Below are positions 30,044 to 49,398 of a DNA stretch of 64,000 bases, in pieces (positions within the stretch are counted from its first letter, which is position 1; each line of letters starts with the position of its first letter). Source of the DNA: Rhodococcus qingshengii JCM 15477 (lineage in GTDB: Bacteria > Actinomycetota > Actinomycetes > Mycobacteriales > Mycobacteriaceae); NCBI RefSeq assembly GCF_023221595.1, contig NZ_CP096563.1, forward strand, positions 5,389,001 through 5,453,000. Reading direction: 5' to 3'. The position numbers were made by a program, and so were the translations under genes. The notes beneath the pieces are model-generated. The model was given only the letters and a program-made list of their open reading frames with translations, did not search any database and was not told the origin of the DNA.

Positions 30044-30799
30044 TCAGCGCTCGAAGGTTCCTTCCAAGCGATTGCGTGAACCCGGATGGATCAAGCGCGC
30101 CGCGCTGACCAATCCGTTAGCCGACCACGTGCGGCGGCGAATCAGCAGGCACGGTTCCCCGCGATCGATGCGTAAGAGCTCGCATTCGTCCGGGCTACCC
30201 AACACCGCTTCCACGACATGCTCGCCGCGAACCAGAGGCGCAACGTCACTCAAGTAGTTGTTGGGGGTGATCGCGGTGAAGTCCTGGCGCAGATAGTCTG
30301 GCGCCTCGTTCGGATTCACGAATCGGTCTTCCACCTGAATCGGAGTTTCGTCCTCGAAGTGCACCATCAGCGAATGGAACACCCGTTTGCCCACCGATTC
30401 ACGAAGGAACGTCTGCCCGTGGTCGGTTTCTTCCTCACGAACGAAGACGACCTCGGTTCGATGACGGTGGCCGCGGCGCTGAATCTCGTCGGCGATGTTC
30501 TTGACTTCGAACAGCGGGGACGCGGTCTTCGTGGCGGCGACAAAAGTACCGACCCCCATCATCCGCACGATCAGACCGTCGCTGGTGAGTTCGCGAAGCG
30601 CTCGATTGATCGTCATTCGTGACAACCCCAGCGCACTGACCAGTTGATTCTCCGAAGGCAGCTGATCGCCTTCGGTCCACCGACCCGAGTTGATCTGCGA
30701 GACCACGAGGTTCTTGACCCGTTCGTAGGCAGGGGCGGACTCGCCGCCTGCCTCGTTGAACAGCACGGCGAGTTCTGCGTCCACTTCGGCAATCGCCAT
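30044..30799 (-). CDS. hutC: HutC, GntR-family histidine-utilisation repressor
   Basis: A 251-residue GntR/HutC regulator. The DNA-binding half (residues 20-90) includes 'PAYERVKNLVVSQINSGRWTEGDQLPSENQLV' and recognition helix 'SRMTINRALREL'. The C-terminal UTRA ligand domain includes 'FEVKNIADEIQRRG' and 'ERFVN-PNEAPDYL', ending in the usual 'ANGLVSAARLIHPGSRNRLEGTF'. In other bacteria HutC binds urocanate and releases TGTATATACA-like sites. Here it is separated from the hut genes by 9 kb and lies 109 bases downstream of the NAD-glutamate dehydrogenase on the same strand. The start at ATG 30799 is preferred to tandem GTGs just upstream. Confidence 0.85.
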   Translation of the reverse strand: MAIAEVDAELAVLFNEAGGESAPAYERVKNLVVSQINSGRWTEGDQLPSENQLVSALGLSRMTINRALRELTSDGLIVRMMGVGTFVAATKTASPLFEVKNIADEIQRRGHRHRTEVVFVREEETDHGQTFLRESVGKRVFHSLMVHFEDETPIQVEDRFVNPNEAPDYLRQDFTAITPNNYLSDVAPLVRGEHVVEAVLGSPDECELLRIDRGEPCLLIRRRTWSANGLVSAARLIHPGSRNRLEGTFER

Positions 30800-30908
30800 C
30801 GCCACCACCCGTTCGTCGAAAACCACCGAGTCGGTTCTCCCGTTCGGCCTCCGAAGTCTATCCGCCTCGTGCACCTTTCCGATCCATCCGCGAGCGTCCG
30901 CGCCGGAC

Positions 30909-33900
30909 CTAACCCACCATGCGCCGCAATTGGCTCGTCGCAACCGAAAGCGCAGCAAGATCGTGTTGCCCGGACGCCTCGATCTCTGCGAGCGCGAGAG
31001 TGGACCTCTCGATTCTCGACGCATTCCTTTCTTCCCACCTCGAGAGTTTTTCCGCTGTCGTGTCACCCGCTTCCGCGTCGGCCAAGACGTCGAGGGTCAG
31101 GGCCCGCACCGTCGAGTACAACTCGTCCCGCAACGACAACCTCGCCAACGCGTTCCATTTTCCGTCCTTGCTCAATGCCGACACTCGATTGAGCATCGGG
31201 ACGAGCCCAACATGCTCACCGAGCCGGAAATAGAGTTCGCCGGTCTCCGAGATCGTCCGATCGGCGAGGTCCGCGATCTCCACCACGTCGAGCAGTCCGA
31301 ACTGATCGAGCAATATCTCCACTCGCCTGACCAGGTTCTCCGGCGCGCCTTTGTCCGTGATGAGGACCGTTCGCGCAGCCAGGTTCCGCTGATCTGCGCC
31401 TACCAGCCAGCCATCGAGCTCTGCCGACGCCTCCGCGATGCGATCACCGAATCTGCTGATCTCGGCCCCGACGGCCAGCGGTTGCGGACGACGTGTCAGC
31501 ATCCACCGTGACGCCCGGTCGAGCAGTCGCCTGGTGAGCAGGATCAACTCGTCGGACACTGCGGTCGAGATCGAGGCTTCGCTGATGTCGTGCCACAACC
31601 CCCACAGTCCGAACACCTCGGAGACCACCGTGAAGGCACGTACTGCGTCTTCCGGATCAGCGCCGACTTCTTCACCGAGCCGATACGCATAGGTGATGCC
31701 GCCTCGATCGATGACGTTGTTCGTCAGCACTGTCGCGACGATCTCGCGACGAAGTGGGTGCCGGTCGAGGGCGTCACCCCCTGCAACTCGAACGCCCTCC
31801 GGAAAATAGTTCGCCAGCACCTGGCGGTAGATCTGGTTGTCGATCGAGCTTCCTTCCAACAAGGTGGATTTCAGATCGAGCTTGACGTGGGCCATCAGTG
31901 TGGCGAGTTCCGGCGACGTCAGCCCCGTTCCCGACTTCTCGGCCGCGGCGAACTGCTTCTTGGTCGGAAACCCTTCGATGACGCGGTCGACGATTCCGCG
32001 AGATTCGAGGTTCGAAATCACTCTGCCGTGCACACCGATCATCGCCCCCGCATCCGCACGCGTGGTACCCATCAGTTCGTTCTGTGAACGGTTGTCTGCA
32101 AGAACGAGTTCGGCGACCTGATCGGTCAACGTTTCGAGCAGTGCGTCGCGATGTGAGTCCGCGACGACGCCTGAGCTGATCAGGGAGTCGAGAAGGATCT
32201 TGATGTTCACCTCGTGATCGGAGCAATCGACTCCCGCGGAATTATCGAGGGCGTCTGTATTGATCCGCCCACCGATGCGCGCGTATTCGATTCGTCCGGC
32301 CTGGGTGAGGCCGAGATTGCCTCCTTCACCGATCACTCGGGCACGCACTTCGTTGCCGTTCACCCGAACGGCGTCGTTGCTCTTGTCGCCGACTTCGAGG
32401 TCGGACTCACCGGAGGCCTTGACGTACGTTCCGATGCCGCCGTTCCACAACAGATCTGCCGGGGACCGCAGAATCGCCCGAACCAGTTGCGGTGGAGTCA
32501 GTTCGGTGACGTCGCCCTCGAGGCCCAGGGTTTCTCGCATCTCGTCACTGATCGGAACGCGCTTCGCCGAGCGTTCCCACACTCCGCCGCCCGCGCTGAT
32601 CAAGGTCGGATCGTAGTCGGCCCACGAGGATCGTGGGAGTGCAAAGAGACGTGATCGCTCGTCGTACGAGCGCTCAGGCGACGGGTCCGGATCGACGAAC
32701 ACGTGCCGATGATCGAACGCCGCGATCAGGCGAATGTGCTTGCTGCACAACATACCGTTGCCGAAGACGTCGCCACTCATGTCTCCGATCCCCACCGCGG
32801 TGAAGTCATCGTGCTGGGTATCGAGGCCGAGCTCACGGAAGTGCCGCTTGACACTTTCCCAGGCGCCCTTCGCCGTGATACCCATGGCTTTGTGGTCGTA
32901 GCCGACCGACCCGCCGGACGCGAAGGCGTCGCCGAGCCAGAATCCGTACTCCGCGGCAACCTCGTTCGCGATGTCGGAGAACTTCGCAGTTCCCTTGTCC
33001 GCGGCGACAACAAGATACGTGTCGTCCCCGTCGTGGCGAACGACCCGCCGCGCCGCGACAACGGCCCCGCTCTGCTTGTCGACGTTGTCGGTCAGATCGA
33101 GTAGTCCGCGAATGAAGGATCGGTAGCAATCGATCCCGGCCGCCAACGCAGCTTCTCGGTCTGCGTCTGCGCCCAGCCCTGGAACCGGTGGGCGTTTGAC
33201 GACAAATCCGCCCTTCGCTCCGACAGGCACGATGACTGCGTTCTTGACTGCCTGCGCCTTCACCAATCCCAGTACCTCGGTGCGAAAGTCCTCTTTCCGA
33301 TCCGACCAGCGCAAGCCGCCGCGAGCCACCGTACCGAAGCGAAGGTGCACACCTGCTACATCGGGTGAGTACACGAATATCTCGAACTTCGGTCGAGGGA
33401 AGGGCAATACGGACAGCTTCTCCGAATCGAACTTCAACGAGAGCGCGCCGAGCGATTCAGTGGGATACACGAAATAGTTGGTACGCAACGTGTTACGGAC
33501 CAGCTCGGACAACGCGCGCAGGATCCGATCGGCGTCGAGTCCTTGCACTTGTGCCACGGCCGTTTCCACGTCCGCTGCTGCACGTGCACCTCGATCTCCG
33601 TCGACGACGTCCGGATCGAAACGGCTCTCGAACAATTCGCACAATCTGCCGGCGATCTCGGGATGATCGGCAAGTACCTCGGCGACGCGACCGGTGCTGT
33701 AAGGAAATCCCGCTTGCTGCAAGAACTCCGCGTACGCCCGCAGCACCACTACCTGTTTCCAGCCGAGTCCCGCGATCGCGACCAATTCGTTGAACGAGTC
33801 CGGCTCGGCGTCACCGTTTCGAACCGCGGCAAACGTCGCCCCGAATCGCGCGGCAAAGTTGTCGAAGCCTTCGACCGGAGCACTCGGGTAGTAGAGCGTG

Positions 33901-35555
33901 AACTCGTAGATCCTGGACTGTTCGGTTCCCACCGGTGCGATCTCGTACGGACGTTCGTCGACCACTTCGACGCCCAGGCTCTGCAATACGGGCAGCACCT
34001 CGCCCAGAGAGAGCGGATCACCCGATACGTACAGTCCGAGACGGTGAGTACCCGGTCCGTCGACAGATCGGGCCAACCGTGGACTTACTTCTCCGGGCGC
34101 GAGGCCCTCGAACACCGCCATGTCCTCGGCGGCTCGGACAGCGTCGAAATCCTGCTTGTATGCCACCGGGACGCGCTCGGCGAACCGAGCACGCCTGCGC
34201 CGCTCGTCGTAGTGCGAAGCATCCAGAACGAATCGTTCGTCCCACGTCAGGCACGCGTCGACGACGAGGTCCCGAATCTCCCGTGCTTGTCGCGCCGACG
34301 CGAAGTTCGCGCCGCCGCCGACTGTGGCCGTGAAATGTACGACGGCCAAGGGGGATTCCGAGACTCGACTGGAGAACTCGATATTGTGGGCACCGAGTGC
34401 GTCGGCGAGTACCGACTCGGCCGTTGTTCTGATCGTCGTACTGAATTTCTCGCGCGGAACGAAGAGCAAAGCCGACAACTCTTGATCTCGCCCTGTCGCC
34501 GGGGAACTTCCCACCGGTTGCAAGAACAGATGGATCGATGTGCGGCCGTCCACGGAAGTGAGTTCGTCCAGCGCGTCCGCGATTCGGGCCGGCTCGGCCG
34601 CCATGAGCACTGTGACCGGAATCGACTGAATCACTGCCAGCATCGATTGTCCGACAAACGAATCGACGGTGGATCCTGAGGCCTCGAAGATGTCTGCGAC
34701 GCGTCCTCGCACGAGCGGGGTTCGCCTGACGTCGGCGACGATACCGGTCGCGGTGAAGAACCCGACGAATCGGTACGCACGGTCGCCGACGGACACGTCG
34801 ATCTCGGTGGCGTATTCGGATCCACCGAACCCTTGCCGGAGGTACACCACTGCAATCGCGAGGGGCGCCGCTTTCGAATCCGAAGAGCCGGTTGGATCGG
34901 GGAGCACGCCGATGGCGTACGGCTCGTCACTGTCGACAGTTCGCGCACCACCGATGACACTGAAGTTTCCGGCGCTGCACCACCGGAGAAAGTCAGCTTC
35001 TTCGGCGTAGCCGTTCGAGTCCAGTTGCTCGCGCGCCTCGTCGACGAGGTCCCGCAGGGGCACGGAATCGCGGAAGGCACGCGCGATACGGTCGAGGATT
35101 CCGGCGACGTCGTCCGCGATCACCTGCGCCTGCGCGTTCGAACAGTGTGCGGGTAGTCCTATGTGGATCCATGATTCGGTGCGCTCCCCGGCCCGGGCGT
35201 CTTCGGTGCTGTGCGCCGGTTGCACGGCTGTGCGAAGCACGGGGTGCACCACGAATTCCGGTTCCACGCGGGCACGGGCAAGTGTCGCCAAGACCGCTTC
35301 GACGAGCTGCGGCATGTCGTCGCCGACGTATTGAATCGCGGGGCCGTCCCCTAACTCCCCGGCCGGCGCGAGTCGCGAGATCGACGAGTTGTGTCCTCGT
35401 CGACGCGAAAGGTCCATGTGCGCGGCGACAATCGCCAGCTTGCGGTCTTCGGCGAGCGCAGCGTATCGATCCGCCGACAAGCCCTCGAAATACGTACTGG
35501 ACACCCTCCTCACATTCTCGGAGTCCGGTGTCGTGTCGACTGAAACGAGGCTCAT
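30909..35555 (-). CDS. gdh: NAD-specific glutamate dehydrogenase, large (180-kDa) type
   Basis: A 1548-residue protein of the large NAD-dependent glutamate dehydrogenase family, converting glutamate to 2-oxoglutarate and ammonium in the cytosol. The first ~700 residues are the regulatory ACT-like region. The catalytic part contains 'GGLRWSDRKEDFRTEVLGLVKAQ', 'KNAVIVPVGAKGG' with the catalytic lysine, 'GDMSGDVFGNGML' and 'NGGIGTYVKAS' near the nucleotide domain (each in part). Length is slightly below the usual 1600-1650. The ATG at 35555 (MSLVSVD) with GAAGG is preferred to a longer start. A 13-base inverted repeat lies 59 bases upstream. It links histidine catabolism, whose end product is glutamate, to the TCA cycle. 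Confidence 0.9.
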   Translation of the reverse strand: MSLVSVDTTPDSENVRRVSSTYFEGLSADRYAALAEDRKLAIVAAHMDLSRRRGHNSSISRLAPAGELGDGPAIQYVGDDMPQLVEAVLATLARARVEPEFVVHPVLRTAVQPAHSTEDARAGERTESWIHIGLPAHCSNAQAQVIADDVAGILDRIARAFRDSVPLRDLVDEAREQLDSNGYAEEADFLRWCSAGNFSVIGGARTVDSDEPYAIGVLPDPTGSSDSKAAPLAIAVVYLRQGFGGSEYATEIDVSVGDRAYRFVGFFTATGIVADVRRTPLVRGRVADIFEASGSTVDSFVGQSMLAVIQSIPVTVLMAAEPARIADALDELTSVDGRTSIHLFLQPVGSSPATGRDQELSALLFVPREKFSTTIRTTAESVLADALGAHNIEFSSRVSESPLAVVHFTATVGGGANFASARQAREIRDLVVDACLTWDERFVLDASHYDERRRRARFAERVPVAYKQDFDAVRAAEDMAVFEGLAPGEVSPRLARSVDGPGTHRLGLYVSGDPLSLGEVLPVLQSLGVEVVDERPYEIAPVGTEQSRIYEFTLYYPSAPVEGFDNFAARFGATFAAVRNGDAEPDSFNELVAIAGLGWKQVVVLRAYAEFLQQAGFPYSTGRVAEVLADHPEIAGRLCELFESRFDPDVVDGDRGARAAADVETAVAQVQGLDADRILRALSELVRNTLRTNYFVYPTESLGALSLKFDSEKLSVLPFPRPKFEIFVYSPDVAGVHLRFGTVARGGLRWSDRKEDFRTEVLGLVKAQAVKNAVIVPVGAKGGFVVKRPPVPGLGADADREAALAAGIDCYRSFIRGLLDLTDNVDKQSGAVVAARRVVRHDGDDTYLVVAADKGTAKFSDIANEVAAEYGFWLGDAFASGGSVGYDHKAMGITAKGAWESVKRHFRELGLDTQHDDFTAVGIGDMSGDVFGNGMLCSKHIRLIAAFDHRHVFVDPDPSPERSYDERSRLFALPRSSWADYDPTLISAGGGVWERSAKRVPISDEMRETLGLEGDVTELTPPQLVRAILRSPADLLWNGGIGTYVKASGESDLEVGDKSNDAVRVNGNEVRARVIGEGGNLGLTQAGRIEYARIGGRINTDALDNSAGVDCSDHEVNIKILLDSLISSGVVADSHRDALLETLTDQVAELVLADNRSQNELMGTTRADAGAMIGVHGRVISNLESRGIVDRVIEGFPTKKQFAAAEKSGTGLTSPELATLMAHVKLDLKSTLLEGSSIDNQIYRQVLANYFPEGVRVAGGDALDRHPLRREIVATVLTNNVIDRGGITYAYRLGEEVGADPEDAVRAFTVVSEVFGLWGLWHDISEASISTAVSDELILLTRRLLDRASRWMLTRRPQPLAVGAEISRFGDRIAEASAELDGWLVGADQRNLAARTVLITDKGAPENLVRRVEILLDQFGLLDVVEIADLADRTISETGELYFRLGEHVGLVPMLNRVSALSKDGKWNALARLSLRDELYSTVRALTLDVLADAEAGDTTAEKLSRWEERNASRIERSTLALAEIEASGQHDLAALSVATSQLRRMVG

Positions 35556-35613
35556 GTCAGCACCTTCCGCCGAAAGCCACGCTGCTTCCGACTTGTAGTG
35601 GGTTCGATCCGCA

Positions 35614-35647
35614 ATCAACTTGTCTATACAGGCTTAGACAAGTTGAT
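35614..35647 (-). promoter_or_regulatory. Inverted repeat upstream of gdh, with embedded HutC-like site
   Basis: ATCAACTTGTCTA and TAGACAAGTTGAT form perfect 13-base arms around 8 bases. Within it, CTTGTCTATACAGGC (35619-35633) agrees at 13 of 15 positions with CCTGTATATACAGGC in the hut permease promoter. Confidence 0.6.
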
Positions 35648-35742
35648 CATTGCAGAACGTGAGCCGCGACACAACAGCTTCACCCCTGGACAAATTCGCC
35701 ACCCTCGGCCATAGTCAGTCCATGCCAACTAGTGGCAATTAG

Positions 35743-35759
35743 ATTTCATTAGATGAAAT
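35743..35759 (+). promoter_or_regulatory. Dyad upstream of the acyl-CoA dehydrogenase operon
   Basis: ATTTCAT-TAG-ATGAAAT, 30 bases before the GTG start. A second weaker dyad, TGCCA-ACTAG-TGGCA, lies just upstream near 35722. Candidate operator for the IclR regulator at the end of this operon. Confidence 0.4.
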
Positions 35760-35788
35760 TCTTAACCATCCCGCCTCGAAGGAGCCCC

Positions 35789-36958: not shown

Positions 36959-36969
36959 AAGGCGCGGAC

Positions 36970-38112: not shown

Positions 38113-38149
38113 ATTCAGCGCAGACATCCCTCGGCACTTGGAGTAGGAC

Positions 38150-38812
38150 ATGGCCCCCGGCGACGTGACCCGCAGCGCGAATCGCACGTTCGAACTTCTC
38201 GGTGCGATCGTCGAGCACGGCGGGTTGACGCTCGGCGACGCCGCCAAGGCAACCGATCTGGCAACCAGTACCGCGCTTCGCCTGATCAGAAGCCTCGAAC
38301 AAACCGAGTTCGTCGTCCGCGGCGAGGACAACGTCTATCGCGTCGGCCCGCGGCTACTACAGATCGGGGCTCGCGCTCTCGGTGACAATCAACTGTTGCC
38401 GAGAGCGCGGCCCGCGATGAAGGCCATCGCCGAAACCACCAGAGAGTCGACCTACCTGTCGACGAAGGGACCGAAAGACACTGCGCTGTATCTCGATCAG
38501 ATCGAGGGCACGCACGCGATCCGCCACATGGGGTGGGTGGGCCAGAGCGTTCCCCTGGACGGCACCGCCGTCGGCGCAGCGTTGAGCGGCAAGGTAGGCG
38601 AGAGCGGGTACGCCATTGCGCACGACACCATCGAGGATCACTCGACCGGAGTTGCCGCGCCGATCTACAACGCGGTCGGTCAGATAGCCGGAGCGCTCAG
38701 CGTCGTCGGCCCGACATTCCGTCTGACGGACGAGGTCTGCGCCAGCCACGGTCGTGTCTTGGTGGAGCACTGCGCCCGGTTGTCCGCGGAACTCGGCAGC
38801 CAGACACCCTGA
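38150..38812 (+). CDS. IclR-family regulator (acyl-CoA operon)
   Basis: A 220-residue IclR regulator: N-terminal winged helix (residues 1-70; 'TSTALRLIRSLEQTEFV' recognition helix) and a C-terminal effector domain (residues 80-220) with 'GQSVPLDGTAVGAAL' and 'GVAAPIYNAVGQIAGALSVVGP'. It is slightly short for the family (about 250). Third gene of the preceding operon, 37 bases after the CoA-transferase, so it probably controls it. The next gene is a second, different IclR protein. Confidence 0.85.
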   Translation: MAPGDVTRSANRTFELLGAIVEHGGLTLGDAAKATDLATSTALRLIRSLEQTEFVVRGEDNVYRVGPRLLQIGARALGDNQLLPRARPAMKAIAETTRESTYLSTKGPKDTALYLDQIEGTHAIRHMGWVGQSVPLDGTAVGAALSGKVGESGYAIAHDTIEDHSTGVAAPIYNAVGQIAGALSVVGPTFRLTDEVCASHGRVLVEHCARLSAELGSQTP

Positions 38813-38836: not shown

Positions 38837-38852
38837 GTCTCGTATCCGAGAC
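38837..38852 (+). promoter_or_regulatory. IclR-type operator, copy 1
   Basis: GTCTCGTATCCGAGAC, a 16-base palindrome with one central asymmetric pair, 51 bases before the second IclR gene. Two variants of the same word lie upstream of hutH, so this is probably the autoregulatory site of that regulator. Confidence 0.7.
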
Positions 38853-38903: not shown

Positions 38904-39695
38904 ATGACGACGAGCCGCGTGAAATCTGCTGAGCGCGTGCTCGACGTGCTCGATCTCCTGGCCCGCCGGGGTGTGCCGCTGGCGACGGCAGAAATCTCCA
39001 GCGCCCTCGAGCTGCCGAAGAGTACGACGCATCACCTCCTCAATGTCATGCGGGATCGACGGTTCGTCTCGTACTGGGCTGATCAACGCGCCTGGACCCT
39101 GGGTGTCTCGGCGTTCGAAGTCGGTGCGTCGTACATGCGGTCCGGCCCACTTCACCGTGAGGGCCAACGATTCATGCTGGCACTCACTCAGTCGACCGAC
39201 GAGACCTCCCATCTGGCGGTACTTCAGGGTTCTGACGTCATCTACCTCGACAAACGTGAACCTCTGAAGCCCGGCGTTCGGTTGGTGACCGAGATCGGGA
39301 CCCGCCTTCCGGCGCATCTCACCGCAGTCGGGCGGGCGATTCTGAGCCGTCTGGATGCGGAACAGATCAGCGCGCTCTACGAGGGGTACACCTGGCCGAC
39401 GCGGACCGGAACGGGTCCGTCGACGCTCGCCGAACTGCGAGAACTGCTCGCCGCAGCACGTGAGAGCGGATATGCGGTCGAAGAGAATGCGACGACATCC
39501 GGGATCAACTGCATCGCCAGCCCCGTGATCACACGGGACGGTCGTCCGGTCGCAGCTCTCGGCGTCACCTTCCTCTCCGGCTCCAAATCGGCCGAGGAGA
39601 GTGCCCTGATCGCCGACCGAGTGCGCGCCGTCAGCGCCGAGTTCTCCGCCGATCTCGGAGATCGAATGGTGGAGACCCCGACCGCAGACATGTAA
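38904..39695 (+). CDS. IclR-family regulator of the hut operon (probable)
   Basis: A 263-residue IclR protein. Winged helix at residues 5-70 ('LATAEISSALELPKSTTHHLLNVM' recognition region), effector domain with 'TSHLAVLQGSDVIYLDK', 'LPAHLTAVGRAILS' and 'GINCIASPVITRDGRPVAALGVTFLSG'. It lies directly upstream of hutH, and 16-base sites of the same sequence occur before its own gene and before hutH. It is therefore probably the histidine-pathway activator or repressor, acting with HutC. The ATG at 38904 follows GTAAGGACAC; a longer frame overlapping the previous gene is unlikely. Confidence 0.85.
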   Translation: MTTSRVKSAERVLDVLDLLARRGVPLATAEISSALELPKSTTHHLLNVMRDRRFVSYWADQRAWTLGVSAFEVGASYMRSGPLHREGQRFMLALTQSTDETSHLAVLQGSDVIYLDKREPLKPGVRLVTEIGTRLPAHLTAVGRAILSRLDAEQISALYEGYTWPTRTGTGPSTLAELRELLAAARESGYAVEENATTSGINCIASPVITRDGRPVAALGVTFLSGSKSAEESALIADRVRAVSAEFSADLGDRMVETPTADM

Positions 39696-39733: not shown

Positions 39734-39769
39734 GTCTCATATTCAAGACTAGAGTCTCGTATACAAGAC
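39734..39769 (+). promoter_or_regulatory. Two IclR-type operators before hutH
   Basis: GTCTCATATTCAAGAC (39734-39749) and GTCTCGTATACAAGAC (39754-39769) are direct copies 20 bases apart, two turns of the helix. A -10-like TTAGAT follows at 39774, and the -35 position falls between the sites, as expected for an activator. Confidence 0.7.
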
Positions 39770-39804: not shown

Positions 39805-41373
39805 ATGAACGCCACCCCTGCCACCCAGACAGCCACCCGAACCATCGAGGTCGGAATCGGCGCTGTCACCATCGCCGACGTCGTCGACGTCGCGCGCAAC
39901 GGATACGGCGTTGCATTGACCGCGGAATCACTGGCCGCGATCGCCGAAAGTCGTGCACGCATCGAAGCGCTGGCCGCAGACCCCACACCGGTCTACGGAG
40001 TTTCCACCGGATTCGGCGCACTTGCCACCCGGCACATTCCGGCGCATCTGCGGACACAGTTGCAGCGCAGCCTGATCCGCTCACATGCGGCAGGTTCGGG
40101 ACCGGAAGTCGAACGCGAAGTGATCCGGGCCTTGATGCTTCTGCGTCTTTCGACGCTCGCCACCGGGCGAACCGGAGTGCGCCCTGTAGTCGCACAGGCG
40201 TACGCCGACCTACTCACCGCAGGCATCACCCCGGTGGTGCACGAATACGGCAGCCTCGGATGCTCGGGAGATCTGGCACCACTGGCGCATGTGGCGATGG
40301 CAATCATCGGTGAAGGTTCCGTCCGCACCGCCGACGGTGAACTCACCGATGCGGCAACGGCATTGGCTGCCCATGGTCTCGAACCGGTGGTTCTGGCCGA
40401 GAAGGAAGGCCTCGCCCTGATCAACGGTACCGACGGGATGCTCGGTCAACTGGCCCTTGCGATCACCGATCTCGATCATCTGCTCAAGTTGGCCGACATC
40501 GCTGCCGCCATGAGCGTCGAGGGCTTGCTCGGCACCGATCAAGTGTTCGCCGCCGATCTTCAGGCGCTTCGCCCCCACCCCGGACAGGGCGCGGCCGCCT
40601 CGAACATGGTGCGCTTGCTTGCCGACTCCCCGATCGTCGCCAGCCACGCGGGCCCTGACTGCACCAGAGTTCAGGACGCGTACTCACTGCGGTGCGCACC
40701 GCAGGTCGCCGGCGGCGCACGCGACACCGTCGATCACGCCCGACTGGTTGCCGGGCGCGAATTGGCCAGTGCTGTCGACAATCCCGTCGTCACTCTCGAC
40801 GGAAGGGTTCGGTCGAACGGTAACTTCCACGGAGCTCCCGTGGCTTACGTCTTGGACTTCCTCGCCATCGTGACCGCGGATGTCGCGGGGATCAGCGAAC
40901 GCCGAACCGACCGCTTCCTCGACGCAGCACGCAATCACGGTCTGACCCCCTTCCTCGCCGACGACCCCGGTGTCGACAGCGGACTGATGATCGCGCAGTA
41001 CACACAAGCTGCCATCGTGTCCGAACTCAAGCGACTCGCGAGCCCGGCCAGTGTCGATTCGATTCCCTCCTCGGCCATGCAGGAAGATCACGTCTCCATG
41101 GGATGGTCGGGTGCACGCAAGCTCCGCCGGTCCATCGACGGTCTCACCCGAGTTCTCGCGATCGAGATACTGACTGCAGCAAGAGGAATCGATTTGCGCT
41201 CCCCACTCGAGCCCTCCCCCGCCACCGGAGCCGTCCTTCGGACCCTGCGCGAGAAGGTGCAGGGGCCGGGTACCGATCGCTTCCTGTCCCCCGAGATCGA
41301 GGCCGCGGTGGACTTGGCGGCATCGGGTGCACTTGTTGCGGCCGCGGAGAACGCGATCGGCGCCCTGGCATGA
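39805..41373 (+). CDS. hutH: Histidine ammonia-lyase
   Basis: A 522-residue histidase that converts L-histidine to urocanate and ammonia. The self-made MIO cofactor triad is Cys153-Ser154-Gly155 (GSLGCSGDLAPL), the Cys form seen in some actinobacterial histidases rather than the usual Ala-Ser-Gly. 'YGVSTGFG' and 'RVQDAYSLRC' carry other active-site residues. The ATG at 39805 is preceded by GGAGTCCC. The TGA overlaps the next ATG (ATGA), so the aminotransferase is translationally coupled. Confidence 0.93.
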   Translation: MNATPATQTATRTIEVGIGAVTIADVVDVARNGYGVALTAESLAAIAESRARIEALAADPTPVYGVSTGFGALATRHIPAHLRTQLQRSLIRSHAAGSGPEVEREVIRALMLLRLSTLATGRTGVRPVVAQAYADLLTAGITPVVHEYGSLGCSGDLAPLAHVAMAIIGEGSVRTADGELTDAATALAAHGLEPVVLAEKEGLALINGTDGMLGQLALAITDLDHLLKLADIAAAMSVEGLLGTDQVFAADLQALRPHPGQGAAASNMVRLLADSPIVASHAGPDCTRVQDAYSLRCAPQVAGGARDTVDHARLVAGRELASAVDNPVVTLDGRVRSNGNFHGAPVAYVLDFLAIVTADVAGISERRTDRFLDAARNHGLTPFLADDPGVDSGLMIAQYTQAAIVSELKRLASPASVDSIPSSAMQEDHVSMGWSGARKLRRSIDGLTRVLAIEILTAARGIDLRSPLEPSPATGAVLRTLREKVQGPGTDRFLSPEIEAAVDLAASGALVAAAENAIGALA

Positions 41374-42443: not shown

Positions 42444-42459
42444 CCGACTGGAGAAAAGA

Positions 42460-43824
42460 ATGTCCGTCCACGAACTTGCTCGGTCGATCGGTTCGAGTCG
42501 CCTGATCACCGACCCTGCGGTAATGGACTCGTACCGCCGTGACGAGGCCCATCTCGCCGAACCCGGCCATCCGGTAGCCGTCATGCTCGCCGAAACTGCG
42601 GCCGACATTTCCGAGGCTCTGAAATGGGCTACTGCTCACCGTGTCCCGGTGGTAACCCGCGGTGCGGGAACCGGTTTGGCGGGCGGCGGGGCAGCCGTCG
42701 AGGGCTGCCTGGTCATCTCGACCACTCGTATGCGCTCGATTCTCGAGGTCAATCCGGACGATCAGCTCGCTGTCGTGGAAGCCGGGGTGATCAACGCCGA
42801 CATCAGTCGAGCAGCAGACGAGTACGGGCTGATGTACGCCCCTGATCCGAGCAGTTTCGAGATCTCCACGATCGGCGGAAACATCGCCACCAACGCCGGT
42901 GGACTGCGTTGCGTGAAGTACGGCGTCACCCGCGATTCAGTCCTGGGTCTCGAGGTTGTGCTCGCCGACGGTCGGATCGTGCGGACAGGCCGAAGGACCG
43001 TCAAAGGTGTTGCGGGATACGACTTGACCAGTCTTCTCGTCGGTTCGGAGGGAACACTCGGAGTCGTCACGAGTGCCACGCTGAAGTTGCAGCCCAAGCC
43101 CAAGAGAGCACCGGTCACCGTCGTCGGCAGTTTCGATTCTCTCCGCTCCGCAGCGGACGCAGTTGCCGCGGTCGTTCGCGACGGGATCGGACCGAGCCTG
43201 CTGGAGCTGATCGATCGAGCAACGCTGCGCGCAGTCGACGACTGGAAACGAATCGGATTGGAAGACAACACCGCCGCGATGCTGATCGCACAGGCCGACG
43301 GGGTCGATGCCGACGCAGCAGCCGCGGCGATGCAGAAACACTTCGAGAGGGCGGGCGCCGATTTTGTCGCCGTCTCGCAGGACGCGGCAGAAGCCGCACA
43401 GCTACTCGAGATTCGCCGACTCGCCTATCCGGCTTCCGAACGACTCGGGCAATGTCTCGTGGAAGACGTCGGGGTCCCGCGGTCGAAACTGCCCGACATG
43501 CTCGAGAGTATCGACCGAGCGGCCGCCGAGCACATGGTCAAGATCATGACTGTCGCGCATGCTGGTGACGGCAACGTCCATCCGACCTTCGTCTTCGACC
43601 GCGCTGCCGACGGCTCGGTCCCCGAAGCCGTGTGGACCGCCGCGGACGAGGTCTTCCGGCGTGCTCTCGAACTCGGCGGAACTCTGACCGGAGAGCACGG
43701 CGTCGGCGTTCTGAAGCGTCGCTGGCTCTCTCTCGAGCTCGGCGAGGACAGCATGCAACTGCACCGATCGATCAAGGCTGCCTTCGACCCGCTCGGAATC
43801 CTCAACCCGGGTAAGGGTTTCTGA
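42460..43824 (+). CDS. FAD-linked 2-hydroxyacid oxidase (GlcD/D-lactate dehydrogenase type)
   Basis: A 454-residue VAO-fold flavoprotein. The PCMH-type FAD domain (residues 30-215) has 'VPVVTRGAGTGLAGGGAA', 'PDPSSFEISTIGGNIATNAGG' and 'GSEGTLGVVT'. The C-terminal FAD-oxidase domain has 'AHAGDGNVHPTFVF' (metal/substrate His) and 'TGEHGVG', ending 'FDPLGILNPGKGF'. Such enzymes oxidise D-2-hydroxyacids to 2-oxoacids. In this operon a plausible substrate is imidazole-lactate, giving imidazole-pyruvate for the adjacent aminotransferase. Start at ATG 42460 (GGAGAAAAG before it). Confidence 0.87.
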   Translation: MSVHELARSIGSSRLITDPAVMDSYRRDEAHLAEPGHPVAVMLAETAADISEALKWATAHRVPVVTRGAGTGLAGGGAAVEGCLVISTTRMRSILEVNPDDQLAVVEAGVINADISRAADEYGLMYAPDPSSFEISTIGGNIATNAGGLRCVKYGVTRDSVLGLEVVLADGRIVRTGRRTVKGVAGYDLTSLLVGSEGTLGVVTSATLKLQPKPKRAPVTVVGSFDSLRSAADAVAAVVRDGIGPSLLELIDRATLRAVDDWKRIGLEDNTAAMLIAQADGVDADAAAAAMQKHFERAGADFVAVSQDAAEAAQLLEIRRLAYPASERLGQCLVEDVGVPRSKLPDMLESIDRAAAEHMVKIMTVAHAGDGNVHPTFVFDRAADGSVPEAVWTAADEVFRRALELGGTLTGEHGVGVLKRRWLSLELGEDSMQLHRSIKAAFDPLGILNPGKGF

Positions 43825-43873
43825 TTTCTCGCGTGGTGTTACACAGCATTTACGCGAAAACGGGTCCCGGGTA

Positions 43874-43902
43874 TTGACGCCTGTATATACAGGCATATAC
43901 AT
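43874..43902 (+). promoter_or_regulatory. Promoter of the permease-hutUIG operon with HutC-like operator in its spacer
   Basis: TTGACG (43874-43879) and TATACA (43896-43901) form a -35/-10 pair with a 16-base spacer. The perfect palindrome GCCTGTATATACAGGC (43879-43894) fills that spacer and matches the TGTATATACA core bound by HutC proteins. Confidence 0.7.
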
Positions 43903-43925
43903 TTATCCGCAGTGACAGTGACCCA

Positions 43926-43967
43926 GCGCACAAAGCACAAGGCGCAAAGCACCAAGCACGAAGAAGG
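43926..43967 (+). repeat. Heptamer direct repeats in the permease leader
   Basis: About five to six 7-base units related to AAGCACA/AGGCGCA/AAGCACC/AAGCACG follow one another without gaps, purine-rich and in the predicted 5' leader of the permease message. Confidence 0.5.
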
Positions 43968-44027
43968 TGGGCAATACCCCGACGTCGATTCCGTCGCTCG
44001 ACGGGCTCGCAGCAGAAAGACAGGCCT

Positions 44028-45464
44028 ATGACTCACGATGGACCGGCCGAGGTCATCCTCACTCCGGAACGACGCACTATCGACGTCGTCCCGGATGCAG
44101 AACGACACGGCACCCCGCGCAGCCAGTTCACTCTCTGGTTCGGCGCCAACATGCAGATCACTGCAATCGTCGACGGCGCTCTCGCCGTCGTATTCGGCGC
44201 GGACGCCATCTGGGCGATCGTCGGACTTCTGATCGGCAACATCTTCGGTGGCGCTGTCATGGCGCTTCACTCCGCACAGGGCCCGCGTATGGGTCTCCCC
44301 CAGATGATCTCGAGTCGCGCCCAGTTCGGCGTCAAGGGAGCAGTCGTACCGCTTGTTCTCGTCATCCTGATGTACCTCGGCTTCGCTGCCACCGGCACCG
44401 TGTTGGCCGGACAGGCCGTCAACAAGATCCTGCACATCGACAGCCCCACCGTCGGCATCGTCGTCTTCGGTCTCCTCACCGCATTCGTCGCGGTCACCGG
44501 CTACAAGCTGATCCACATCGTCGGCAGGATCGCCACCGTCGTGGGCATCGTCGGATTCTCCTACCTGGCCGTTCGACTGTTCCTCGAGTACGACGTCGCC
44601 TCGTACGTCGGCATCAAGGGCTTCGACATAGTCACCTTCCTGCTCGCGATCTCGCTGGGTGCCGGTTGGCAGCTCACCTTCGGCCCGTACGTCGCCGACT
44701 ACTCGCGTTACCTGCCGCGCAGCACTTCCGAGAGCACCACGTTCTGGTCGACGTTCCTCGGTAGTGTCATCGGATCGCAGTGGTCCATGACCTTCGGCGC
44801 TCTCGTCGCGGCCTGCGCCGGCGACGCGTTCCTGGGTAACCAGGTCGGCTTCATGGGAGATCTGGCCGGACCCGCTGCCATCGCCTTCCTGATCTACTTC
44901 GTCATCCTGGTCGGCAAGCTGACGGTGAACGTGCTCAACGCCTACGGCGGATTCATGTCGATCCTGACCACCGTCACCGCCTTCAACGGACAGTCTCGAA
45001 TCTCGAGCACCGCGCGCACCCTCTACATCCTCGGTTTCACTGCGGTCTCGGTCTTGATCGCCATCGCCGCCAGCGCCGACTTCCTGGACAACTTCAAGAA
45101 CTTCGTCCTGGTGTTGCTGATGGTGTTCACGCCGTGGAGTGCGATCAATCTGATCGACTACTACCTGATCTCCAAGGAACGCATCGACATTCCGGCGCTG
45201 TACGACGTCAACGGTCGATACGGAGCATGGAACTTCACCGCATTGGCTTGCTACGCCGCCGGCGTTCTCGCCCAGATCCCGTTCCTCGCCCAGAAGATGT
45301 ACACCGGCCCCGTCACGGACATGCTCGGCGGCGCCGACATCTCGTGGCTCGTCGGCATCGTGTTCACCGGGCTGATCTATTACCCACTCGCCAAGCGCAC
45401 GAGCAATCCCCCTTCGTCGATGATCTACCCCGATCACACCGCGATGACCGACTCTCGCGTCTGA
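44028..45464 (+). CDS. NCS1-family (purine/cytosine permease-like) transporter
   Basis: A 478-residue membrane protein with about 12 hydrophobic segments and the NCS1 marks 'FTLWFGANMQITAIV', 'QGPRMGLPQMISSRAQFG', 'DIVTFLLAISLGAGWQLTFGPYVADYSRYLP' (in part) and 'VFTPWSAINLIDYY'. NCS1 carriers bring nucleobases, allantoin, hydantoins or related ring compounds in with Na+ or H+. Its place before hutU and behind a HutC-type operator suggests uptake of histidine, urocanate or another imidazole. The ATG at 44028 has AGACAGGCC upstream. Confidence 0.87.
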   Translation: MTHDGPAEVILTPERRTIDVVPDAERHGTPRSQFTLWFGANMQITAIVDGALAVVFGADAIWAIVGLLIGNIFGGAVMALHSAQGPRMGLPQMISSRAQFGVKGAVVPLVLVILMYLGFAATGTVLAGQAVNKILHIDSPTVGIVVFGLLTAFVAVTGYKLIHIVGRIATVVGIVGFSYLAVRLFLEYDVASYVGIKGFDIVTFLLAISLGAGWQLTFGPYVADYSRYLPRSTSESTTFWSTFLGSVIGSQWSMTFGALVAACAGDAFLGNQVGFMGDLAGPAAIAFLIYFVILVGKLTVNVLNAYGGFMSILTTVTAFNGQSRISSTARTLYILGFTAVSVLIAIAASADFLDNFKNFVLVLLMVFTPWSAINLIDYYLISKERIDIPALYDVNGRYGAWNFTALACYAAGVLAQIPFLAQKMYTGPVTDMLGGADISWLVGIVFTGLIYYPLAKRTSNPPSSMIYPDHTAMTDSRV

Positions 45465-45506
45465 TCCCCCAACGTCTTTCGAACTTCAGCAAGCTAGGAG
45501 AACACA

Positions 45507-47180
45507 ATGGAAATCAGCACCCCCGGCCACGAGCCGCGCCCCGTCCGCGCTCCCCGCGGCCCCGAGCTCACGACGCTCGGTTGGCAGCAGGAGGGTGCCC
45601 TGCGCATGCTCATGAACAACCTCGACCCCGATGTTGCCGAGCACCCGGACAGCCTCGTCGTCTACGGCGGAACCGGTCGCGCAGCGCGTAGTTGGGCTGC
45701 CTTCGACGCCATGGTCGCCACGCTGAAGACGCTGAAGAACGACGAGACCATGCTGGTGCAGTCCGGCAAGCCGGTCGGTGTCTTCCGCACCAACGAGTGG
45801 GCACCGCGAGTGCTGATCGCTAACTCCAACCTGGTCGGTGACTGGGCGAACTGGGAAGAGTTCCGCCGTCTCGAAGACCTCGGCCTGACCATGTACGGCC
45901 AGATGACCGCAGGCTCCTGGATTTACATCGGCACCCAGGGAATCCTGCAGGGTACGTACGAGACCTTCGGCGCCATCGCGAAGAAGCGCTACAACGGCTC
46001 ACTCGCCGGAACGATCACCCTCACTGCGGGTCTCGGCGGCATGGGCGGCGCTCAGCCTCTCGCCGTCACTATGAACGACGGCGTCGCGATCTGCGTCGAC
46101 TGCGACATCACCCGCATCGACCGTCGTATCGCCCACAAGTACCTCGACACCAAGGCAGACAGCATCGAGCACGCGCTCGAACTGGCGACCGCGGCACGCG
46201 ATGCCAAGAAGCCACTCTCCATCGGCCTCGAAGGCAATGCGGCAGAGATCTTCCCGGCGCTGCTGGAGATGAAGGCCCCCATCGACATCGTGACCGACCA
46301 GACCTCGGCGCACGATCCCCTCGCCTACCTGCCGATCGGCATCGACTTCGGCGACATGAAGACCATGTCGGAGAAGGATCCGCAGAAGTTCACCGAAGAT
46401 TCCCGCAACGCGATGGCCGCACACGTCAAGGCCATGGTCGGATTCATGGACGCCGGCGCCGAGGTATTCGACTACGGCAACTCCATCCGCGACGAGGCCC
46501 GCAAGGCCGGCTACGACCGTGCATTCGACTTCCCCGGATTCGTTCCCGCCTACATCCGTCCGCTCTTCGAAGAAGGCCTCGGCCCCTTCCGCTGGGCAGC
46601 GCTCTCGGGTGATCCCAAGGACATCGAGGCCACCGACAAGGCCATCCTCGAACTCTTCCCCGAGAACGAGCACCTGCGCCGCTGGATCACCATGGCCGGC
46701 GAAAAGGTTGCCTTCGAAGGCCTTCCGGCTCGTATCTGCTGGCTCGGATACGGTGAGCGCCACCTCGCCGGCCTCAAGTTCAACGAGATGGTGGCCTCGG
46801 GCGAGCTCTCCGCACCGATCGCCATCGGCCGCGATCACCTCGACTCCGGATCGGTCGCCTCGCCGTACCGCGAAACCGAATCGATGATCGACGGGTCCGA
46901 CGCGATCGCCGACTGGCCGCTGCTCAACGCCCTGGTCAACACCGCGTCCGGCGCTTCGTGGGTTTCACTCCACCAAGGCGGCGGCGTCGGGATGGGGCGC
47001 TCCATCCACGCGGGACAGGTGTGCATCGCCGACGGCACCGAACTCGCAGCCAAGAAGCTCGAAGCAGTTCTCACCAACGATCCCGGGATGGGTGTCATCC
47101 GGCATGCGGATGCAGGATACGACCACGCCATCGACACGGCAGCCACCCGCGGCGTCCGCATCCCGATGACCGAGAACTGA
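45507..47180 (+). CDS. hutU: Urocanate hydratase
   Basis: A 557-residue urocanase, of the normal family length, which uses NAD+ as an electrophile to turn urocanate into 4-imidazolone-5-propionate. '[17 protein letters not shown]', '[18 protein letters not shown]', '[17 protein letters not shown]' (NAD loop) and '[13 protein letters not shown]' are diagnostic, and the catalytic Cys lies in the '[11 protein letters not shown]' region. The ATG at 45507 follows CTAGGAGAA. Second gene of the permease-hutUIG operon. Confidence 0.95.
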
Positions 47181-47217
47181 AACAGCTTCACCACCTCACC
47201 CTGAGTTAGGAATTACA

Positions 47218-48408
47218 TTGACCACGAATGGTTCTCGAACCACCGTTCTGACCAACATCGGAACCCTCGTCACCAATGACCCGACTCTGGGTGAGGGCAA
47301 ACTCGGCGTACGACACGACGCGGCAATCGTTTTCGACGAGGGCGTTGTTGCTTGGGTCGGCGATTCCGCCGACGCCCCGGCTGCCGATATCGGTCAGGAT
47401 ATCGGCGGTCGGGCCCTGCTCCCCGGATTCGTGGAGAGTCACTCGCACCTGGTGTTCGGTGGCGAGCGGGCCGAGGAATTCGCAGCTCGCATGGCGGGCG
47501 AGAAGTACGCGGCGGGCGGTATTCGCAACACCATCGAAGCGACGCGCTCGGCCACCGACGAACAATTGCAGGCCAATGTTCGACGCCTACTCGACGAATC
47601 CCTGCGCTCGGGCAGCACAACCGTCGAATGCAAGACCGGATACGGGCAGAACACCGAGAGCGAACTACGCAGCGCACTGATCGCCGGACAGTTCACCGAC
47701 GAGGTCACACTGCTGGCCGCCCACGTTCCACCACCCGAATATGCCGGTCGCGTCGATGACTACGTCGCCATGGCGTGCGACGAGATGATCCCTGCCTGTG
47801 CGCCACACGCGAAGTGGATCGATGTCTTCTGCGAGCGAGGCGCGTTCAACCGCGAACAGGCACATGCAGTCCTGAGCGCAGGCGTCGCCGCCGGACTGAT
47901 CCCCCGCGTCCACGGCAATCAACTCGGCGAAGGGCCAGGAGTTCAACTCGCCGTCGAGATGGGAGCCGCATCCGTCGATCACGTCACCTACGTCACCGCC
48001 GAGGACATCGACGCCCTGGCTCAGAGTTCCACCGTCGCAACACTGTTGCCAGGTGCCGACTTCTCCACCCGCAACAAGTACCCCGACGCCCGCGCACTGC
48101 TGGACGCCGGCGTCACAGTAGCTCTCGGCGCCGACTGCAATCCCGGCACCTGCTACACCACCAGCCTCCCGTTCTGCATAGCAATTGCGGTGCGAGACAT
48201 GCACATGACACCCGCCGAGGCAGTCTGGGCAGCCACTGCAGGAGGCGCCCGGGCGCTGCAGCGCACCGACGTCGGAACCCTTTCTCTCGGAACACGTGCC
48301 GACGCCATCGCGCTCGATGCACCGTCGTACCTCCACCTCGCCTACCGCCCGGGCGTGCCACTGGTGCGCGAGGTCTGGAAAAACGGCGCACTCGCCACAA
48401 GCTACTGA
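47218..48408 (+). CDS. hutI: Imidazolonepropionase
   Basis: A 396-residue amidohydrolase that opens the imidazolone ring to N-formimino-glutamate. Metal ligands: SHSHLVFGG near residue 80 and further His in '[10 protein letters not shown]' and 'PRVHGNQLG', catalytic 'DHVTYV' and Asp in '[11 protein letters not shown]'. Start is a TTG at 47218 with AGGAATTACA before it; no ATG is nearer. It is in an operon with hutU and hutG. Confidence 0.94.
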
Positions 48409-48429
48409 AATACTCACCGGGAGGCCGTC

Positions 48430-49398
48430 GTGGCACATCAGATCGCAGTCGACATCGAACCCAAGCCGTGGACCGGGCGCTCCGACGGCACCACTGCCGA
48501 GCATCTGCGGTGGCATCATGCCGTGCAACCGTATTCAGCCGAAACAGCTCCCGGCGACTGTGTTCTGATCGGATTCTCCAGCGACGAAGGAGTCCGCCGC
48601 AACAAGGGCCGCCGCGGTGCCGCGGATGGCCCGGACGCTTTGCGAGCCGGGTTGGCTTCCATGGCGCTGGCCGAACCACTGCAGATTCAGGACGCCGGAA
48701 CCGTTGCCGTGTCGGGTGAAGAACTCGAGGCCGGTCAAGCCGCACTCGGGAACGCCGTCAGCGCAGCGCTTGATTCGGGACACTTCCCTGTGGTTCTCGG
48801 GGGAGGACACGAAATCGCCTACGGCACATACCTCGGCGTCGCGGGCTCCGAGTTGCGAACCGCTGGAGCCAAACTCGGAATCCTCAACTTGGATGCGCAC
48901 TTCGACCTGCGGGGCGATCCGATACCCAGCTCCGGCACACCCTTTCGTCAGATCGCCGAGGACGAAGCCGCGGCAGGCACCTCGCATCAGTACAGCGTGA
49001 TCGGAATCAGCCAACCGAGCAACACCACGGCACTGTTCGACACGGCTCACCGCCTCGGTGTTCGCTATCTGCTCGACGAAGAATGCGGAGCGATCGGCCG
49101 AGGCGTCGTGGATCAGTTCCTCGCAGACTTCCTCGACGACGTCGATCTGGTCTACCTGACCATCGACCTCGATGTCCTGCCTGCAGCTGTGGCGCCGGGC
49201 GTCAGCGCACCTGCGGCCTACGGAGTCAGCCTCGAAACCATCCAATACGTATGTGACCGAGTCACGTCCAGCGGAAAACTCGCGGTTCTCGATGTCGCCG
49301 AACTGAACCCGAGCCTAGACGTCGACAATCGCACTGCCCGAACGGCTGCTCGTCTGATCCACCGGATAGTCACGAAGCACGTGCCGGTTCAGCGCTAG
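48430..49398 (+). CDS. hutG: Formiminoglutamase (arginase family)
   Basis: A 322-residue manganese hydrolase of the ureohydrolase family that releases glutamate and formamide from formiminoglutamate. Ligand motifs: GGGHEIAYG, 'NLDAHFDLRG' and 'TIDLDVLPAA', with 'GVSAPAAYG' near the end. Start is a GTG at 48430 with GGGAGGCC upstream. The stop TAG overlaps the stop of the convergent TetR gene within CTAG. Last gene of the hut operon; the product glutamate could feed the gdh enzyme 13 kb away. Confidence 0.94.
   Translation: MAHQIAVDIEPKPWTGRSDGTTAEHLRWHHAVQPYSAETAPGDCVLIGFSSDEGVRRNKGRRGAADGPDALRAGLASMALAEPLQIQDAGTVAVSGEELEAGQAALGNAVSAALDSGHFPVVLGGGHEIAYGTYLGVAGSELRTAGAKLGILNLDAHFDLRGDPIPSSGTPFRQIAEDEAAAGTSHQYSVIGISQPSNTTALFDTAHRLGVRYLLDEECGAIGRGVVDQFLADFLDDVDLVYLTIDLDVLPAAVAPGVSAPAAYGVSLETIQYVCDRVTSSGKLAVLDVAELNPSLDVDNRTARTAARLIHRIVTKHVPVQR

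Follow-up and report, generated by a model that had tools for sequence, protein, structure and literature searches.

Predicted HutC control of a hut-linked NAD-glutamate dehydrogenase gene in Rhodococcus qingshengii and its relatives

In Rhodococcus qingshengii JCM 15477, the gene of the repressor HutC is not located beside the hut genes but behind a gene for a large NAD-glutamate dehydrogenase (gdh), which raises the question whether one repressor gates both histidine breakdown and this dehydrogenase, as had been proposed from the sequence of the window (the whole stretch of 64,000 nucleotides that was analyzed) alone. The genomic comparisons described below make it highly likely that HutC represses two units, permease-hutUIG and gdh-hutC, from which urocanate would release it, with HutH probably being gated separately by an IclR-type regulator.

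Genes and predicted operators of the locus

The features of the locus are listed in Table 1. The HutC protein consists of a GntR winged helix and a UTRA effector domain and is 58-63% identical (best segment) to HutC of Pseudomonas; it scored 292.4 bits with the sister model NF011575, under that model's cut-off of 424. The hut-linked dehydrogenase contains the catalytic domain Bac_GDH_CD (822.9 bits) and the domain GDH_C (327.7 bits), both above cut-off. As the sequence-only reading had stated, hutC follows gdh on the same strand at a distance of 109 bases (30800-30908). A consensus scan of this gap revealed neither a promoter nor a terminator, and judging from this arrangement both genes are probably co-transcribed. 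No Rfam families were found in the window at the gathering threshold and no tandem repeats in 35000-50000.

Table 1. Genes and predicted regulatory elements discussed in the text (positions in the window).
Feature	Position	Strand	Evidence or remark
hutC, GntR/UTRA repressor, 251 aa	30044..30799	-	TIGR02018, 282.7 bits (cut-off 220)
gdh, hut-linked NAD-glutamate dehydrogenase, 1548 aa	30909..35555	-	Bac_GDH_CD + GDH_C domains; ATG at 35555
Inverted repeat, 13-base arms, 8-base spacer	35614..35647	.	encloses predicted operator
Predicted composite HutC operator of gdh-hutC, CTTGTCTAAG + CCTGTATAGACAAG in gdh direction	35619..35642	-	63 bases before ATG
Palindrome GTCTCGTATCCGAGAC before iclR2	38837..38852	+	
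iclR2, IclR-type regulator adjoining hutH, candidate HutR-like	38904..39695	+	IclR domains; palindrome upstream
Palindrome GTCTCATATTCAAGAC before hutH	39734..39749	+	
Palindrome GTCTCGTATACAAGAC before hutH	39754..39769	+	20 bases further
hutH, histidine ammonia-lyase	39805..41373	+	TIGR01225, 635.8 bits; without HutC-type site upstream
Promoter-like pair TTGACG-18-TACATT spanning permease-hutUIG operator	43874..43903	+	consensus match only
Predicted HutC operator GCCTGTATATACAGGC of permease-hutUIG	43879..43894	+	overlaps -35-like hexamer by one base, fills 15 of 18 spacer bases
NCS1-type permease	44028..45464	+	TIGR00800, 118.5 bits, under cut-off 353.1; adjoins hutU in several relatives
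hutU, urocanate hydratase	45507..47180	+	TIGR01228, 897.7 bits
hutI, imidazolonepropionase	47218..48408	+	TIGR01224, 360.3 bits
hutG, formimidoylglutamase	48430..49398	+	TIGR01227, 298.5 bits

The recurrence of the permease-hutUIG palindrome before gdh, on which the proposal had been based, was reproduced: GCCTGTATATACAGGC (43879-43894) and CTTGTCTATACAGGC (35619-35633) have 13 of 15 letters in common. The same holds for the inverted repeat around the latter, whose arms ATCAACTTGTCTA (35614-35626) and TAGACAAGTTGAT (35635-35647) are separated by 8 bases. Perfect 13-base arms are rarely produced by chance (30 shuffles together yielded 4); such arms are also present at four other places in the window, hence their length is not distinctive and was discarded as evidence. 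Likewise discarded was the similarity of the two palindromes at up to three mismatches, since it was found at 12 places genome-wide, compared to 18 for the backwards-read pattern; for the window itself, 0.04 matches to the 16-mer were expected at this stringency and two were seen. The evidential weight comes instead from the HutC-type motif, whose 13-base pattern, CYTGTMTAKACAR, occurs at only two places in the whole 7.5-Mb genome, namely the gdh and the permease-hutUIG sites. The pattern of the composite operator occurs at one place; both patterns were drawn up after the sites had been seen. A weight matrix built from 35 hut-locus sites outside Actinobacteria, themselves selected by means of a similar model, ranked the gdh site first (20.8 bits) and the permease-hutUIG site second (19.2 bits) in the window, followed by the next site at 12.2 bits. 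Of its training sites, 33 were located before hut genes, and reversed sequence yielded 0. In its base pattern, the dyad before gdh is a predicted HutC site overlapped by a half-site at a distance of one helical turn, a composite structure that the sequence-only reading had missed. In the surroundings of the dyad, a consensus scan detected no promoter for the gdh strand.

Layout of the locus in relatives

The sequence-only reading had regarded the position of hutC apart from the hut genes as an undescribed layout. The separation is real, but, as gene order in relatives indicates, it is a split that was derived in the R. erythropolis clade. The nearest outgroup and many further loci have gdh-hutC and hutU or permease-hutUIG in divergent orientation around a shared intergenic region, which carries a predicted composite operator. 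Among the named actinobacterial HutC loci, 19 of 24 show the order gdh, then hutC, with both genes read from one strand (54-136 bases apart in 14 of them); the 19 include loci of Prescottella, Gordonia and some Nocardia. No tblastn match to the gdh of the window was found in 44 non-actinobacterial HutC loci (up to 10 kb on each side).

With some probability, which we consider well short of even, the site before gdh is an operator for HutC autoregulation only and gdh a mere upstream passenger without a special role in histidine use. This is what would be expected from R. marinonascens and several Nocardia-type loci (L054, L056, L057, L186-L188), where the same operator precedes hutC and gdh is absent. 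Two of these loci, L056 and L057, seem by eye to have kept a leftover of the 5′-end of gdh in the interval from the operator to hutC, which suggests that gdh can be lost. Against a passenger role speaks, besides the 19 loci mentioned above, that in 17 of the 18 Rhodococcus genomes with HutC a Bac_GDH gene is found at most 5 kb from hutC, each of these genomes having one or more further NAD-GDH matches. Furthermore, gdh would be controlled by HutC even in the case of pure autoregulation. The hut-linked gdh appears in the phylogeny as a distinct paralogue forming a single branch, with moderate support (75/71), and no HutC-type site was found in the regions preceding eight other NAD-GDH genes.

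Conservation of the predicted operator and its co-occurrence with HutC

An absent or degenerate dyad in relatives of the same gene order had been named as the observation that would speak against HutC control of gdh. In the four close relatives keeping the gene order of the window (L035-L038), the 24-base operator is unchanged except for two inner bases. In the nearest outgroup (G017), 20 of 22 aligned operator bases are identical, in comparison to 125 of 199 for the remaining promoter. The comparison with other Rhodococcus genomes, which the same reading had suggested, revealed the pattern in 17 of 18 genomes with HutC and in none of 10 without it, in a scan that was not blind, as the pattern had been written after seeing the sites. 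The sole HutC genome lacking it is a 74% complete assembly, in which the contig seems to stop just before the site; two of the HutC-less genomes (L164, L165) keep hutU, without the HutC pattern. In total, the 28 genomes contain 24 distinct pattern places, 23 of them being hut/gdh promoters and one preceding a histidine-ammonia-lyase-like gene, while the backwards-read pattern matches in 15 of the 28, the genome of the window not being among these. Beyond the genus, the exact pattern is missing from five of 12 HutC genomes of the order, and in L070 and L189 (HutC 56-57% identical) the region separating hutU and hutC has a GTCT-type palindrome in its place. For 19 of the 44 non-actinobacterial HutC loci, no site was found at the threshold used; the HutC sites at hutIG of P. 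aeruginosa are reported to deviate from the consensus (PMC12772324). The gdh promoter contains a HutC-type operator that relatives retain and that HutC-less genomes lack, and gdh is, on these comparisons, very probably a new member of the HutC regulon in this Rhodococcus and its relatives.

Instead of HutC, the dyad might serve one of the two IclR regulators or the acd-coaT operon, which is transcribed divergently. Since acd starts on the opposite strand 146 bases beyond the operator, an additional effect on the acd-coaT operon is conceivable. As the sole role of the dyad, however, this is quite improbable: the composite operator is also found in loci with hutU or the permease, in place of acd, divergent from gdh; the 10 HutC-less genomes do not contain the pattern; the palindromes at iclR2 and hutH differ in sequence; and a promoter-like pair as well as a small palindrome belong to acd itself. 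A resemblance of the two palindromes by chance, with which the 12 loose matches (fewer than in the reversed control) and the four other 13-base arms would agree, is hardly credible given that the refined pattern is confined to these two promoters in the genome and that the outgroup operator is conserved above the rest of its promoter.

Control of hutH and comparison with known systems

A scan of the window revealed no HutC-type site upstream of hutH, a gap that the sequence-only reading had not noticed; control by HutC via hutH's own promoter was rejected for this window, GTCT-type palindromes being present there instead. Their exact pattern, GTCT-N8-AGAC, occurs nowhere else in this genome than at hutH and iclR2, and because of this confinement an IclR-type repressor, with iclR2 as candidate, may gate the HutH step. 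Such palindromes were found neither in L164 and L165 nor before hutH in loci of other species (L050, L052, L055, L057, L163, L184-L186), which limits this reading to the R. erythropolis group. The earlier proposal that one repressor could gate both steps is supported for gdh and hutUIG, whose sites are conserved and track HutC, but it is incomplete, since hutH may answer to an IclR-type regulator.

In the proposed scheme, HutC would act on permease-hutUIG via 43879-43894 and on gdh-hutC via 35619-35642, and as the latter operator precedes gdh-hutC, HutC would also set its own level. During histidine use, HutH, probably under separate control of the neighboring IclR-type regulator, would produce urocanate, which, by analogy with Pseudomonas, would release HutC. 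This would jointly induce uptake, the three hut enzymes acting after HutH and the hut-dedicated NAD-glutamate dehydrogenase, and we infer as the metabolic purpose that histidine carbon flows via glutamate to 2-oxoglutarate. ACT1 and ACT2 were missing in the three hut-linked dehydrogenase copies tested for them (Prescottella/R. hoagii, Gordonia and Nocardia). A more speculative view, to which we would give only about one chance in three, is that in the R. erythropolis clade two unrelated repressors share the pathway, an IclR-type HutR gating HutH only and a Proteobacteria-type HutC, fed by urocanate, gating the later steps and the dedicated NAD-GDH, and that the loss of ACT1/ACT2 in some Prescottella, Gordonia and Nocardia reflects an exchange of allosteric for purely transcriptional control. 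If the proposed scheme holds, a pathway-specific repressor would have its own copy of an enzyme of central nitrogen-carbon metabolism, the breakdown of one amino acid would be independent of the general glutamate dehydrogenase of the cell, and one of the several NAD-GDH paralogues of Rhodococcus genomes would have a plausible job. The loci would also offer a natural series for the growth and break-up of a regulon, comprising the divergent pair, the split unit, the apparent loss of gdh with a remnant, and the missing ACT domains.

An IclR-type hut regulator, HutR, is known from Corynebacterium resistens, with its motif tabulated in PMC8222616. Similar to what is given there, palindromes of the type GTCT-N8-AGAC precede hutH and the iclR gene next to it in the window; in contrast, they are confined to hutH and iclR2 here, hutUIG having a predicted HutC site. 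The HutR operator GTCTGWWATWCCAGAC has the same GTCT/AGAC ends as the palindromes of the window and differs in the inner bases. The likeness to the tabulated HutR 14-mer is loose, the hutH sites showing two and three mismatches and the iclR2 site more than three, in a search that gave 17 matches versus 8.6 expected. A literature search on imidazolepropionate breakdown genes gave nothing useful.

For Proteobacteria, PMC5343134 lists hut enzymes and transporters as HutC targets and, for two species, also the biosynthesis of histidine. The regulon predicted here resembles this in the repressor family model (TIGR02018) and in hut enzymes and transporters as targets; the TGTATATACA-type operator of the HutC loci fetched for comparison was also found before the hut genes of the window. 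It differs in that glutamate dehydrogenase is not among the targets named there. The window dehydrogenase itself resembles the large NAD-glutamate dehydrogenase of PDB 7a1d (1374 bits with phmmer), having the ACT, helical-motif, catalytic and C-terminal domains of that family, from which it is set apart by its linkage to hut and its predicted HutC-type operator.

HutC-type sites before gdh and the permease unit

In the sequence-only reading, the likeness of GCCTGTATATACAGGC in the promoter of the permease-hutUIG unit to CTTGTCTATACAGGC before the large NAD-glutamate dehydrogenase gene (gdh) had led to the proposal that one repressor, HutC, gates both histidine breakdown and glutamate dehydrogenase. 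Both sequences and the dyad at the gdh promoter are located as described there, and the annotation agrees with the order hutH, permease, hutU, hutI, hutG and, by gene coordinates, with hutC following gdh by 109 bases on the same strand. The similarity figures were numerically correct, but alone they do not prove a link between HutC and gdh: with up to three mismatches, the 16-mer GCCTGTATATACAGGC occurs twice in the window, with 0.04 expected, and at 12 places in the whole genome (G000) vs 18 for the pattern read backwards. Perfect 13-base inverted-repeat arms were found at five places in the window and four times summed over 30 shuffles; the further places in the window are 6431, 52980, 56738, and 58148.

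Coordinates of the features in the window
Feature	Position	Strand	Description
hutC	30044-30799	minus	TIGR02018, 282.7 bits (cut-off 220)
gdh	30909-35555	minus	Bac_GDH catalytic domain, C-terminal domain, ACT domains
Dyad, gdh promoter	35614-35626 / 35635-35647		perfect 13-base arms, 8-base spacer
CTTGTCTATACAGGC	35619-35633		left part of dyad
Palindrome before acd	35743-35759		ATTTCAT-TAG-ATGAAAT, imperfect in close relatives; candidate IclR-type operator
Gene cluster	35789-43824		acd, CoA-transferase, two iclR, hutH, HisC-like, GlcD-like genes
Palindrome before iclR2	38837-38852		GTCTCGTATCCGAGAC, GTCT-N8-AGAC type
Palindrome before hutH	39734-39749		GTCTCATATTCAAGAC, GTCT-N8-AGAC type
Second palindrome before hutH	39754-39769		GTCTCGTATACAAGAC, GTCT-N8-AGAC type
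GCCTGTATATACAGGC	43879-43894		permease-hutUIG promoter

Read in gdh direction, the gdh operator is CTTGTCTAAG followed by CCTGTATAGACAAG and combines a full 14-base HutC-type site with an upstream half-site at a 10-base offset, about one helical turn; CTTGTATATT-CCTGTCTATACAAG in the R. hoagii/Prescottella loci has the same orientation. The permease operator shares one base, the last, with a -35-like hexamer and occupies 15 of the 18 spacer bases of TTGACG-18-TACATT. By eye, TTGACA (as TGTCAA after the operator) is positioned for the hutU/permease direction in most divergent loci. An operator over promoter elements would, on the usual reading, repress RNA polymerase sterically.

Distribution of the refined pattern

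Since the refined pattern CYTGTMTAKACAR was drawn up after sites in named relatives had been inspected, its genome counts are not blind; it occurs at exactly two places in the 7.5-Mb genome, one in the gdh promoter and one in the permease-hutUIG promoter, and at 24 distinct places across 28 Rhodococcus genomes, 23 of which are, by coordinates, at hut/gdh promoters. The remaining place (G001, locus L194) lies about 97 bases upstream of a histidine ammonia-lyase-like gene. HutC-type sites at L194:2451 and L161:2177 precede such genes, which score under the hutH cut-off and may form a third target of HutC in some strains. Of the 28 genomes, 15 contain a match to CYTGTMTAKACAR read backwards; G000 is not among them. 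The pattern is present in 17 of the 18 Rhodococcus genomes with a HutC orthologue (identity at least 74%) and in none of the ten without; a search of G010 and G024, which lack HutC and retain hutU, found no site. The single exception, G016, is a 74% complete assembly, and its hutC contig (L047) appears to start slightly before gdh, short of the position of the R. jostii site (L048). Order-wide, HutC was found in 12 of 397 genomes and CYTGTMTAKACAR in seven of these 12 vs 11 of the 385 others (one-sided Fisher 7.6e-8). Outside the genus Rhodococcus, five of the ten HutC genomes of the order carry the pattern, relatives of some of these ten having been inspected before it was set.

A site scoring at least 19 is located before gdh or hutC in 25 of 26 actinobacterial loci whose layouts were compared, and L190 contains a weaker form only. 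Among the loci outside this comparison, L163, L166, L171, and L185 carry the site, L039 has sites and no gdh in the locus, and the sequences of L042 and L047 end short of the gdh promoter. Scanning of L070 revealed no HutC-type site, and L189 and L191-L193 have none before hutC, with weaker sites elsewhere only.

Across 822 kb from 44 HutC loci outside Actinobacteria, requiring a half-site score of at least 20 yielded 35 sites in 25 loci and none in the other 19; 33 of the 35 lie within -400 to +50 bases of the matched hut-gene start, and the reversed-sequence control gave zero sites at this score. A weight matrix of these 35 sites ranks the gdh site (20.8 bits) and the permease site (19.2 bits) ahead of the next place in the window (12.2 bits), the matrix being not wholly independent because the sites were picked by a model informed by actinobacterial ones.

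Control of gdh by HutC is very probable. HutC would repress both permease-hutUIG and gdh-hutC, and urocanate, the product of HutH, would relieve this repression, a role assigned here because excerpts of PMC8871633 state it for Pseudomonas.

Layout of the locus and the hut-linked dehydrogenase

In the window hutC stands apart from the hut genes; this is a derived split of the R. erythropolis clade, since relatives show divergent layouts. In the nearest outgroup (G017, HutC 91%), hutGIU and gdh-hutC diverge from a common intergenic region that contains two sites. Divergence of hutU from gdh was also observed in R. hoagii/Prescottella (L040, L041, L043), Nocardia testacea, Gordonia sihwensis, N. 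albiluteola, and one of the two hutC loci of N. donostiensis X1654 (L045 with gdh, L057 without). The R. opacus/jostii/koreensis/wratislaviensis group has the permease-hutUIG unit divergent from gdh, and R. marinonascens and several others have hutU directly divergent from hutC. In the R. erythropolis clade the split contains acd-coaT-iclR-iclR-hutH-hisC-like-glcD-like, with a HutC site retained on either side; acd-coaT-iclR also adjoins hutU in L040, L041, and L043-L045. The species name of the window follows from its near-identity with L035-L038. The cluster could feed two compounds into the hut pathway: imidazolepropionate, activated with CoA and dehydrogenated towards urocanoyl-CoA, and imidazolelactate, oxidized and transaminated to histidine; the papers listed in literature searches on such a funnel showed no genes for it.

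Of the 24 named actinobacterial HutC loci, 19 carry gdh in the same orientation as hutC and upstream of it, the others being L039, L054, L056, L057, and L070. The gap measures 54-136 bases in 14 of the 19, about 1 kb in L040 (where it holds an HpcH/HpaI-type gene), L041, and L043, 3.35 kb in L052 with hutH inside, and about 7 kb in L042. An apparent gdh 5′ remnant between HutC operator and hutC (by eye) suggests loss of gdh in L056 and L057. In Prescottella agglutinans (L039:4617-9616), hutC adjoins an ammonia-lyase-like gene, a transporter, and a HalD-like 2OG-Fe oxygenase; two overlapping HutC-like sites with three mismatches each lie at 8098-8121.

G000 contains four Bac_GDH genes, and eight gdh genes other than the hut-linked one (from G000, G017, G015, G006) carry no HutC-type site in their upstream stretches. 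Because the 23 hut-linked rows in a tree of 56 catalytic domains fall on one side of a moderately supported branch (75/71; 77% of 200 bootstraps), the hut-linked gdh was likely, if not firmly shown to be, recruited once. Three tested copies (L040:5576-8983, L049:6495-9950, L055:6545-9949) are short, at 1134-1151 aa, and have neither ACT1 nor ACT2; both domains are retained in the long copies of the window, L046, and L161; by tblastn extent, the copies of L041, L043-L045, L050, L184, and L185 also look short. The absence of these domains possibly reflects a loss of allosteric control.

A candidate second regulator and comparison with known systems

The pattern GTCTYRTATNCRAGAC, derived from the three palindromes before hutH and the adjoining IclR-type regulator gene iclR2, occurs in G000 at these three places only and in 6 of 28 Rhodococcus genomes: all five members of the R. 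erythropolis group have it at matching places, and G011 has it at a single one. In a looser scan, GTCT-type palindromes turned up before iclR2 in L040, L041, and L043; L070 and L189, both with an iclR-like gene beside hutC, carry one in the hutU-hutC interval, and the scan showed none before hutH in other species. The palindromes possibly point to a second hut repressor, and an IclR-type protein may repress hutH. The HutR motif of C. resistens, GTCTGWWATWCCAGAC (PMC8222616, in excerpt), has the same ends, the overall likeness being loose.

Among the open-access papers listed in literature searches, no title or abstract opening connects HutC with glutamate dehydrogenase; PMC6237876 and PMC9491525 contain both terms. 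The P. aeruginosa HutC sites at hutIG reportedly show little similarity to the known consensus (PMC12772324, in excerpt). Proteobacterial HutC regulons are described without a glutamate dehydrogenase target in the portion seen of PMC5343134. According to excerpts of PMC8871633, HutC acts on ntrBC, so that wider nitrogen control by HutC is known in principle.
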